Shown: in pieces, positions 8,073-12,400 of the stretch
Layout: every line of letters begins with the position of its first letter
Position numbering within the stretch: the first letter of the stretch is position 1
Source: Acidobacteriota bacterium
GTDB lineage: Bacteria > Acidobacteriota > Terriglobia > Bryobacterales > Bryobacteraceae
Direction: 5' to 3'
NCBI GenBank assembly: GCA_025352795.1
Contig: JANXSF010000088.1
Location: forward strand, 62,001 to 126,000
DNA: 64,000 nucleotides
The notes under the pieces: generated by a model
Told to the model about the DNA's origin: nothing
Seen by the model: the letters and a program-made list of their open reading frames with translations, nothing else
The model's database searches: none
Program-made: the position numbers and the translations under genes

Positions 8073-8375
8073 TTATGTTGCCGGGTGACCGCAGGCAGCG
8101 CACAATTTTGCTTTTGGAGTTCTGAGTGGTTTGCCACAGTTCAGGCAAGGATTTCCGTAGAGCGCCAAACGGTGATGCCAGACTTCCATCGCGTCAGGTT
8201 CGTGATGGCCGGTGATTCGTTCGTATTCACGGACCACAGGGCCTGAAAACTGATCGACGCGCTCCCCAAAGTTTCCAGACCCTTTGGTGCCGTATTTGGA
8301 AAAGACCAACGCAGACTCTTCGCCATTGAGCATGGGGACTTCGGATTTGCATCGCCAACACCACAGCAGTTTCAT
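8073..8375 (-). CDS. Hypothetical protein with zinc-ribbon cysteines
   Basis: 100 residues, no signal peptide. A CxxC pair near the N-terminus ('CWRCKSEVPML') and two CxxC pairs at the C-terminus ('CLNCGKPL', 'LCAACGHP') suggest one or two structural zinc sites. The middle section is helical with 'GPVVREYERITG'. The function is not recognised. The hicB gene lies upstream on the same strand, 21 bases away. Confidence 0.75.
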   Translation of the reverse strand: MKLLWCWRCKSEVPMLNGEESALVFSKYGTKGSGNFGERVDQFSGPVVREYERITGHHEPDAMEVWHHRLALYGNPCLNCGKPLRTPKAKLCAACGHPAT

Positions 8376-8396
8376 CGATTGTTTGATCGTGGAACT

Positions 8397-8618
8397 TTAA
8401 GACGCAATTTCAAATTCAACAACTTCAACCTCGGTGGTTGTAGAAGGAATAGGCTCACCGATTTCGCGCATCACTTCCACGTGCAATGCGATAGCTTCTT
8501 TAATATTGCGCTTCGTTTCTTCAAGAGTGGCACCAGTAGTGACGCACCCAGGCAGGTCCGGGATGTATGCTGCCCAGTTCGACTCTGCTTCTTCATAGAC
8601 AACGGCAAAGCGTCTCAT
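8397..8618 (-). CDS. hicB: HicB-family antitoxin
   Basis: 73 residues with the degraded RNase-H-like fold typical of short HicB antitoxins: 'AVVYEEAESNWAAYIPDLPGCVTTG' (written here in pieces: the 'YIPDLPGC' core and the following 'TLEETKRNIKEAI' helix). It lacks an added DNA-binding domain. It normally sequesters the HicA mRNA interferase. It begins two bases after the end of the hicA frame, the classic hicA-hicB order, but hicA is broken. The frame is intact, so it stands as an orphan antitoxin. Confidence 0.9.
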   Translation of the reverse strand: MRRFAVVYEEAESNWAAYIPDLPGCVTTGATLEETKRNIKEAIALHVEVMREIGEPIPSTTTEVEVVEFEIAS

Positions 8619-8620
8619 GA

Positions 8621-8806
8621 TTACTCCATTCCAGCTTTCTTTAAGATAGATCTCAACGTGCCAAGGGGAAGATCGTCATTCCAATGTCAGGGGACAGTTA
8701 CAACAAGTGGTTTATCTGGATGTTTGAATGCCCGATGACTTCCTTTTTGGAGAACCAATCGCCAGTGATTTAATTCTAAACGGCGAATTACATCACGAAC
8801 CTTCAT
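8621..8806 (-). pseudogene. hicA: hicA toxin with a premature TGA at codon 40
   Basis: From ATG at 8806 the frame reads a complete 61-residue HicA: 'MKVRDVIRRLE', the catalytic 'KGSHRAFKHP' with His24, a strand 'PLVVTVP', and the C-terminal 'DDLPLGTLRSILKKAGME'. Codon 40 (8687-8689) is TGA, exactly where HicA proteins usually have Gly ('VPGH..DDL'), so a single G-to-T change from GGA explains it. The stop precedes the last helix, which should abolish the dsRBD-like fold. No start codon allows the downstream part to be made separately in a useful form. Confidence 0.85.
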
Positions 8807-8879
8807 ACACTAAACCAGGCATACTAAACCCAAGACGGTTTATTGATTGAGACATAATTGAAGCAAGGAGGGAATATCG

Positions 8880-9148
8880 GTGACTCACACAATTAGCATC
8901 GATCTTCCTCTGGAAAAAATTTCCGAAATCTGTCGTCGCTACAGTGTCGCCGAATCGGCTGTTTTTGGTCTGCTGCTCGTGGAGAACTAGGCCCGGAGTC
9001 GGACTTAGACATTCTGGTGGAGTTTCAACCTGGGGTCACGTGGGGTCTGGAATACTTCAGTCTTGAACAAGAACTTGCGGAAGCAGTAGGCCGTTGTGTG
9101 GATCTAGCCACCAAAAAATGGCTCCGTCCGGAAGTGCGGATGCATTGA
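8880..9148 (+). pseudogene. MNT-type nucleotidyltransferase (MntA-like antitoxin) with a frameshift
   Basis: A GTG at 8880 follows an excellent AAGGAGGG (8864-8871). The first 30 residues read as the N-terminus of a minimal nucleotidyltransferase up to 'AESAVFG'. One missing base after 8969 breaks the 'GSAARGE' motif; in the next frame the protein continues 'ARGELGPESDLDILVEF', with the DxD metal site, to a natural end at 9148 ('WLRPEVRMH'). Proteins of this size are antitoxins of HepT/MntA modules or components of DNA-repair-like operons. No HepT partner is visible downstream. Confidence 0.8.
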
Positions 9149-9265
9149 CTTGAGTTCCAACGTTGACCGTTCGCGATAGGACACGCCGGAGCCCCATCCC
9201 ACTTAGTTTTCCCGAAATTGGACAGCTTCAAGTGTTTGATCGGAGCGCAACAGGCCTTTGAGGAT

Positions 9266-9333
9266 ACCGCTCCCTTGCGGTAACGGCTCTTTAGAATAAA
9301 TATGTTACGGAGCCGTAACCGCAAGGGATCGGT
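9266..9333. repeat. Long imperfect inverted repeat (intergenic element)
   Basis: Arms of 24 bases, 9266-9289 and 9310-9333, pair with only two mismatches around a 20-base A/T-rich loop. The arms contain CCGCTCCCTTGCGGTAACGG and its near complement. The right side also contains a smaller palindrome, GTTACGG-AG-CCGTAAC (9304-9319). It lies in the 283-base gap between the nucleotidyltransferase remnant and pyruvate carboxylase. I recall closely similar elements dispersed through Solibacter-type genomes, so it may be a REP-like mobile element. It could also act as a transcription barrier. Confidence 0.75.
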
Positions 9334-9387
9334 CTTTCAACCACGTTAAAACTTCGCATGTTATTCTTGGGATTCAGTCCTCGCTGT

Positions 9388-9428
9388 CCGAACCCTTGTA
9401 GGTTCGGTCACCTTCAACTTTTTATAAT
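9388..9428 (+). promoter_or_regulatory. Hairpin and TATAAT directly upstream of pyc
   Basis: CCGAACC-CTTGTA-GGTTCGG forms a perfect 7-bp stem (9388-9407). A consensus -10 TATAAT lies at 9423-9428, only three bases before the ATG at 9432. No -35 element sits at the right distance and no Shine-Dalgarno precedes the ATG. Either the TATAAT drives a leaderless mRNA, or it is just A/T-rich leader sequence. Confidence 0.35.
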
Positions 9429-9431
9429 TAT

Positions 9432-12400
9432 ATGAAAAAGCTTCTAGCCCTGAATCGCGGCGAAATCGCCATTCGAATCTTTCGCGCAACCAATGAACTG
9501 GGCATCCGCACTGTGGCTGTATACTCGCAGGAGGATCGACTCAGCCTGCATCGCTTCAAGGCTGATGAAGCCTACCTCATCGGGGTGGGCAAAGGGCCTG
9601 TTCAAGCCTACTTGGACGTGGATAACATTGTTGCCATGGCCGCCGAAAAGGGTGTGGACGCCATCCACCCTGGCTATGGATTCCTATCAGAAAACCCTGC
9701 CCTGCCCCGAGCTTGTGCAAAGCATGGCATCACATTTATTGGACCCAGTCCCCACCTCTTGGAAGAGCTGGGGGACAAAACAGCAGCCCGCTCCCTGGCT
9801 GAAAAGGCTGGCGTCCCGGTGGTGCCCGGAACTGAACATGCGATTTCCGACGCAGTGAAAGCCGGGAAACTTGCGGCCAGCATCGGCTTTCCATTGATCA
9901 TCAAAGCAGCCTTCGGCGGTGGTGGCCGGGGCATGCGAGTTGTGGAAAAGCCGGAAGACTTTGCCGGTAAGTTTGACGAAGCCAGCCGTGAAGCAGGCGC
10001 TGCTTTTGGGAATAGCGGTTGCTTTATGGAACGCTATATCCGTCGCGCGCGCCATGTGGAAGTTCAGATTCTGGGCGATAAGCACGGGAACATTCTCCAC
10101 TTGCATGAACGGGATTGTTCCGTGCAGCGCCGTCATCAAAAAGTTGTGGAAGTGGCCCCGGCGGTCAACCTGGATGCTCGTATTCGTCGTGAACTGGCCG
10201 ATGCCGCCGTGAAACTGGCTCGTACCGCCGGTTACTACAACGCGGGCACTGTGGAATTCCTGGTGGATGCCGATTCCGGCGAATGGTTCTTCATTGAAGT
10301 GAATCCGCGAGTGCAGGTGGAACATACGGTGACGGAAATGATCACCGGCATAGACATTGTGCGGGCGCAAATTCAGATAGCCCAAGGCATGTCTCTGCAT
10401 GGTCCGGAAATGGATTTGCCGAAGCAGGAAGACGTCCCGCTGCACGGGTTCGCCATGCAATGCCGTGTCACCACGGAAGATCCAGCGAATCACTTTGTGC
10501 CTGATTACGGCAAGATTCAGACCTATCGTTCCCCGGCAGGCTTTGGCGTGCGGCTGGACGGAGCGTCGGCTTATGGTGGGGCGGTGATCACCCCGTTCTA
10601 CGATTCCTTGTTGGTGAAAGTTTCCACTTGGGGTCGTCGATTTCCCGATGCTTGCGATCGCATGGATCGGGCTTTGCGCGAATTCCGTATCCGTGGCGTG
10701 AAGACCAACATTCCGTTTTTGGAAAATGTTGTGAACAACGACAAGTTCCAGAACGGCTTGGTTACCACCAGCTTTATTGACGATACTCCGGCGCTATTTA
10801 AATTCAGCACGCGCAAGGACCGGGCTACTCGTCTGCTGACTTACATGGGGGAAGTGATTGTCAACGGCAATCCAGAAGTGGCCGGTAAAACGAAGCAGAC
10901 TGTCTTCAAGGCTGCACCAATTCCGGCGCACAATTCCGCAGTTCCGCCGCCCGGCACACGACAGATGTTGGATCAAATGGGTGCGGAGAAATTTGCGCAG
11001 TGGACTCGCGATCAGAAGCGGCTGCTGATTACCGACACCACCTTTCGCGATGCCCATCAGTCACTGTTCGCAACCAGGGCGCGCACCTACGACATGATGG
11101 CCATTGCCAACTATGTGTCACACAACTTGAGTGGACTTTATAGTTTGGAAATGTGGGGTGGCGCAACGTTTGACGTGAGCATGCGCTACCTGCTGGAAGA
11201 TCCCTGGCAGCGCTTGCGACTGTTGCGTCAAGCCATTCCGAATGTCCTGTTCCAGATGCTGTTACGGGCGTCGAATGCAGTGGGCTACACCGCTTACCCG
11301 GACAACGTCGTAAAGGAATTCATCCAGGGAGCCGCGGACGAAGGCATGGATATTTTCCGTGTGTTTGATTCGCTGAACTGGCTGCCAAACATGAAGGCAC
11401 CAATGGATGCAGTTCGCAAAACCGGGAAGTTGTGCGAAGCATCGGTGTGCTACACGGGCGATATTTTGGATCCGAAACGGGACAAATACGGGCTGAATTA
11501 CTACGTCAAAATGGCTAAGGAACTGGAGCGAATGGGTGCCCACATTCTGGCTATTAAAGATATGGCCGGGCTTTGCAAACCATACGCTGCGCAGAAACTG
11601 GTAAAGACGTTGCGAGAGGAAGTGGGCATCCCTATTCACTTCCACACGCATGACACGAGCGGCATTAACGCGGCCTCTATTTTGAAGGCTTCCGATGCTG
11701 GGGTGGACATTGCCGATGCGGCCATTGCATCCATGAGCGGGACCACGTCGCAACCGAACTTGAATTCTATTGTGGCAGCGTTGGACAACACTCCGCGCGC
11801 TACAAAGTTAGACTTAAAAGTTTTGAACAATTGTTCCGATTATTGGGAAGTGGTACGCACCTACTATCTGCCGTTCGATAGCGGGTTAAAGGCAGGCACA
11901 GCAAGTGTTTATGAACACGAAATGCCGGGTGGCCAGTTCACCAATTTAAAAGAACAGGCTGAATCTATGGGGCTGGGTCCGAAGTGGAACGAAGTGGCCA
12001 AGACCTATGCCGAAGTGAACCAGATGTTTGGAGACATTGTGAAGGTGACTCCATCCAGCAAAGTGGTGGGCGACATGGCGGTGTTCCTGGTGGGCCACGG
12101 CATGACCTGCGCGGAGTTTGAGAAGTTGAGTCCCGATCATACGTTGACGCTGCCCAACTCTGTGGTGGACATGTTTACGGGGTCGTTGGGAGAACCGGAA
12201 GGCGGTTGGCCGAAGAAGATCGCGAAGATTATTCTGCGGGGAGAGACGCCGAAGAAGGGTCGGCCTGGTGCACATTTGGCTTCTGTCGATATGGCCGAGA
12301 CGGCTGCTCTGGTGGAGAAAAAGATCGGCCGCAAACCTTCACGGACCGATGTCCTTAGTTACCTGATGTATCCCGACGTCTATTTGAAATTCGCCAAAGC

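Follow-up and report, generated by a model that had tools for sequence, protein, structure and literature searches.

A probable hicA pseudogene beside an open hicB antitoxin gene in a draft Bryobacteraceae genome, and the frequency of such loci in the order

Gene organization of the locus

The window analysed here, that is, the whole stretch of 64,000 nucleotides from one contig of an Acidobacteriota draft genome, carries on its minus strand a hicA frame followed directly by a hicB gene. The hicA frame (8621..8806, minus; ATG at 8806, TAA at 8623-8621) comprises 61 sense positions including an internal stop, an in-frame TGA at codon 40 (8687..8689, minus), behind which it is open to its TAA. 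After a gap of 2 nt comes the ATG of hicB at 8618, from which that gene (8397..8618, minus) is open over 73 codons. The assembly sequence thus bears out the preliminary description of a hicA with a TGA at codon 40 beside an open hicB. Read through the stop, hicA matched PF07927 over profile positions 2-58 of 58 (70.3 bits, E 9.5e-19, cut-off 27), and the 39-aa piece before the stop, taken alone, still scored 38.7 bits against the same cut-off. Since the match extends over both sides of the stop, the resemblance to HicA is not due to chance, and the region behind the stop is, as had been claimed, still readable. Sequence matches to HicA were found among the structures 4c26, 6g26, 1whz and 9svk.

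To place the stop, we counted codon conservation over 78 distinct intact relatives aligned with the frame. Codon 40 encodes Gly in 76 of the 78, so that the TGA falls at a near-invariant glycine column, in agreement with the earlier assignment. Also as described, codon 24 (8735..8737, minus) retains the catalytic His of the GSH motif, present in 77/78 relatives. The further claim that the frame is complete apart from the TGA stood for the frame and its stop but not for the rest, because codon 14 (8765..8767, minus) is aberrant too: it encodes His where 77/78 relatives have Gly, and all three of its bases differ from those of the closest relatives. Codon 60 encodes Met (Leu in 71/76 relatives). 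These two departures at conserved columns, besides the stop, make an unexceptional count, given that 10 of the 78 intact relatives also have at least two departures among the 17 hicA columns that are conserved. The closest intact hicAB pairs of the same order, in genomes G224, G251, G112 and G250 (HicA 72–78% and HicB 68–71% identical to ours), differ from our locus in having no internal stop and in keeping Gly at both codon 14 and codon 40. In all four of these intact relatives the Gly of codon 40 is encoded by GGC; an origin of the stop by a single base change from GGA to TGA, as proposed earlier, is therefore not demonstrated.

The product of hicB likewise looked intact, as stated before, with a PF15919 score of 49.7 bits (cut-off 27) and departures at two of the 17 columns conserved across 103 relatives. 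PF21748 was the only other match in the Pfam search, which found no DNA-binding domain. Structures with a sequence match were 6g1c, 6g1n and 4p78, and the best-matching named relatives came from Terriglobia, Bryobacteraceae, Bryobacterales and other Acidobacteriota, from which we take the order to be Bryobacterales. According to PMC10865869, class 1 hicAB modules share with our locus the hicA-first order with hicB close behind, here after 2 nt, and their HicB of 60–90 aa without a DNA-binding domain is matched by ours at 73 aa; the HicA typical of the class has 60–85 aa, a range outside which the present one, cut at 39 residues, falls. In the HicA fold as that paper describes it, the last helix corresponds to sequence behind the TGA position here. 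A 39-residue HicA would lack this helix and is expected to be inactive.

A putative ribosome-binding-site-like GGAG (8624..8627, minus) lies within the 3' end of hicA, 5 nt before the hicB ATG, and the truncated hicA reading ends 68 nt upstream of the hicB start. With its own start codon and this GGAG, hicB can probably be translated without ribosomes completing hicA. A promoter scan of positions 8380-9440 found none and returned two terminator-like sites, both at a palindrome described below; Rfam gave no match over the same positions, and neither did NCBIfam for the five proteins tried. The locus presents an open hicB adjoining a non-intact hicA, as in an orphan antitoxin.

Genomic neighbourhood

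Divergent from hicA, at 8880-9148 (plus), lies a gene for an MNT-type antitoxin nucleotidyltransferase that is split over two frames. Its piece at 8951-9148 (plus) matched PF01909 with 35.1 bits (cut-off 21), the piece in the other frame (8880-8972, plus) had no profile match, and the frames up to 9430 revealed no evident toxin gene as a partner. Further on, a palindrome (9266-9333) has 33-nt arms that are 82% complementary. Its 18-base core recurs in 39 genome copies at ≤1 mismatch, as against 0 for the reversed control, and the genome has four Y1 transposase genes (PF01797), two of which, on contigs C85 and C125, are about 230 and 170 bp away from a core copy; we take the palindrome and the transposase together to be a REPIN/RAYT-like system. 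Downstream of hicB, a 100-aa zinc-ribbon-like protein (8073-8375, minus) matched PF12773 with 20.8 bits, below the cut-off of 27.3. With a match in 3 of the 61 genomes searched, our own included, this neighbour is too rare to be used for synteny.

Frequency of broken hicA genes in the order

Given an interrupted toxin gene beside an open antitoxin gene, we investigated how common such an arrangement is in the order. HicB was searched against 257 genomes of the order, as was a HicA query with X at the stop, and the best 80 matches of each search were classified, more matches existing in both. For this classification, a hicA profile was built from 28 relatives. A hicA was called broken if a stop lay in its best profile match or if that match spanned less than 52 of the 61 positions, and unrecognisable if the 450 nt upstream, read on the same strand, gave no profile match.

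Among the best 80 hicB matches, 76 had an open hicB, with hicA intact in 47, broken in 19 (our own locus included) and unrecognisable in 10, so that 29 of the 76, again counting our own, were without an intact hicA. In the remaining four loci the part of hicB that matched was interrupted by a stop, and hicA was missing. Anchoring on the toxin instead, 71 of the best 80 hicA matches were intact with at least 260 nt of sequence downstream; 70 of these had an intact hicB and one did not. At this single exception, L210, no HicB was found in three frames downstream, although a diverged antitoxin may be present. The other nine loci were seven with a broken hicA and an intact hicB, and two at contig edges.

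By construction the hicB-anchored set favours open hicB and the hicA-anchored set intact hicA. Owing to the former bias, and to the loci that occur in both sets, the Fisher p of 4e-9 is no true probability. Even so, the hicA-anchored set, despite favouring intact hicA, held seven loci with the toxin broken and the antitoxin intact versus one of the reverse. Internal stops were present in 12 of 150 hicA genes among the matches listed (own locus included; rows counted by hand) and in six hicB genes among the matches listed. The lesions in broken hicA genes vary by locus, with stops, frameshifts and deletions among them, and because they differ between loci the losses are probably largely independent, as judged from the lesions rather than from a tree. 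By these counts toxin-first decay is frequent in the order, which makes our own case an ordinary one. The proposal that the toxin was inactivated while the antitoxin survived is hence supported, and the pattern recurs in related genomes.

This asymmetry also bears on the quality of the underlying sequence. The source genome is a draft (6.05 Mb in 140 contigs, 96.58% complete), and if the TGA were a sequencing or assembly error, the hicAB module would be intact in the organism. Consistent with such an error, no second assembly of the locus was found, the one other genome of the genus that was searched having yielded no DNA match to it, and the frameshifted nucleotidyltransferase gene lies only 74 nt from the hicA start. 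Random error, however, would not favour broken toxins over broken antitoxins in the hicA-anchored set; the long frame of the adjacent carboxylase gene is open; and the aberrant codon 14, three bases off the closest relatives, is not a stop. We therefore consider an error at the TGA improbable.

Reading of the TGA codon

A genuine TGA could still be read through, by selenocysteine insertion or a suppressor tRNA, to give a low level of full-length HicA. The genome does contain a tRNA-Sec with anticodon tca (L150, G000:C12:150616-150705) and a second hicA with an in-frame TGA, at the codon-14 column and with no hicB match, both of which would fit readthrough. Yet codon 40 in relatives is Gly, not Cys (76/78), and the 50-nt stretch from the TGA is less stably folded than its shuffled versions are on average (-4.7 versus -6.97 kcal/mol, z 0.93, with 165 of 200 shuffles folding at least as well, in a test of folding only). 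Moreover, of the window's 35 long frames 9 are closed by TGA, and other hicA genes of the order carry TAG and TAA as well. Readthrough is accordingly extremely improbable, and selenocysteine at hicA codon 40, unlikely in view of the Gly in relatives and the weak fold, was rejected.

Given its tRNA-Sec, the organism may make selenoproteins. The second hicA (L005, G000:C103:55359-55526) has its TGA where relatives have Gly, and no hicB match was found in its 2.9-kb locus; it prompted us to consider recoding of TGA as Gly, which was rejected on the count of long non-overlapping window frames ending in TGA and on the internal TAG and TAA of the order's other hicA genes.

Age of the lesion

The inactivation had been called recent. 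No insertion or deletion was found within hicA relative to its closest relatives, and the divergence of codons 41-60 does not exceed that of codons 1-39 or of hicB: dN versus the four closest relatives was 0.14–0.15 for codons 41-60, 0.14–0.17 for codons 1-39 and 0.16–0.18 for hicB. Both results are compatible with a young stop; its age is not measured by them, as synonymous sites were saturated in 10 of 12 comparisons with these relatives. The loss of Gly14 as well means that the stop was perhaps not the first lesion and may be later than another one. The other genome of the genus offers no readable empty site, because the contig that carries its DUF4097 gene ends about 330 bases away from that gene.

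Selection on the orphan antitoxin

With the toxin presumably dead and the antitoxin open, HicB might be kept by selection, whether to shield the cell from related HicA toxins (anti-addiction) or for some other role, a proposal that is compatible with the decay of the module and adds a function to it. We regard it as tentative and rather doubtful. In its favour, 10 of the 76 open hicB genes among the best 80 matches have no recognisable hicA at all, and dN/dS of the antitoxin genes is low. For 45 closest hicB pairs, out of 545 differing by ≤30%, dN/dS was 0.00–0.12 in the 25 that include an orphan, resembling the 0.01–0.14 of the 20 that do not, with no relaxation of orphan hicB visible among the 45. 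Individual pairs gave the same picture: dN and dS of hicB were 0.000 and 0.067 between L185 (frameshifted hicA) and L186 (intact), 0.007 and 0.086 between L087 (truncated hicA) and L086 (intact), and 0.020 and 0.200 between L075 (no hicA) and L076 (intact). Such low ratios, however, may date from before the loss of hicA, and the four of 80 hicB loci in which hicB is interrupted by a stop and hicA is missing are what would be expected if orphans decay later. Distant relatives of HicB were found on plasmids (86 among 72,556 records) and phages (63 among 50,697 records), which counts in favour of the proposal; counting against it, every one of these 86 plasmid and 63 phage best matches is less than 60% identical.

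Across the genome that carries the locus, PF07927 matched at 10 places, eight of them above cut-off, and three complete hicA genes with a hicB just downstream were found (C103:29697, C8:22352 and C69:19699), which answers the earlier suggestion to look for other intact copies. Compared with our locus, in that order, they are 50, 43 and 39% identical in HicA and 39, 39 and 30% in HicB. The nearest HicB paralogue (L134, G000:C131:7166-7366) is open, of the same subfamily and 55% identical; no hicA could be recognised beside it, although the hicA of its relative L169 is intact. Given how distant the paired toxins and antitoxins are and that the nearest paralogue is without hicA, a shield within its own genome seems doubtful. 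Protection against incoming HicA of the 72–78% identical kind is possible.

Discussion

Toxin–antitoxin modules are expected to decay from the toxin side, since a toxin gene can be safely lost while its antitoxin is present but not vice versa. In line with this way in which such pairs work, we read the locus as a decayed module of class 1 type whose toxin is dead and whose antitoxin survives, and assign this reading a probability of about 0.87. The best reading of the draft assembly, our one source for the locus, is thus a hicA pseudogene beside an open antitoxin gene. Its foundation is seen directly: hicA holds a stop, hicB is open, and related genomes show the toxin-first asymmetry. Truncation at codon 40 would leave an inactive HicA of 39 residues, so that toxicity has probably been lost, and hicB, with its own ATG and GGAG, would still be translated, which points to continued expression of HicB; the toxin gene would then decay first and the antitoxin outlast it. 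Also counted in favour were the neighbouring antitoxin-type gene, which is broken too, and the 1145-aa carboxylase frame beyond, which is open; counted against were the lack of a promoter found in 8380-9440 and the loss of Gly14.

Loci of this kind have precedents. PMC7192599 describes an abundance of orphan antitoxins in Klebsiella pneumoniae, with degraded pairs as one source, and PMC10790755 an abundance of them in Escherichia coli, together with orphan toxins. Our locus is like them in having an open antitoxin beside no working partner; it differs in that the remains of the toxin gene can still be read, its evident defects being the stop and one aberrant near-invariant codon. The order also differs from E. 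coli as portrayed there, since orphan toxins abound in the latter, whereas here the asymmetry is towards the surviving antitoxin. Anti-addiction as a common use of orphans is said to await demonstration in PMC7354431, and class 1 and 2 hicAB toxins and antitoxins are without experimental analysis according to PMC10865869. Among the titles and abstract openings surveyed, we found no report of hicA decay in Acidobacteriota.

A toxin-dead pair with an open antitoxin is an already known kind of locus and frequent in the order, and because such pairs are familiar, this single locus matters little by itself. The useful part is the base rate, with 29 of 76 open hicB genes lacking an intact hicA versus 1 of 71 intact hicA genes lacking a hicB (best 80 matches in each case). 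Should selection on the orphans hold, which we think doubtful, the small class 1 HicB proteins of the order would have been stripped of their toxins repeatedly and kept as shields or in another role, and would be domesticated genes rather than debris. The differing lesions, some of them between close genomes, provide a test set for whether orphan antitoxins are selected or decaying.
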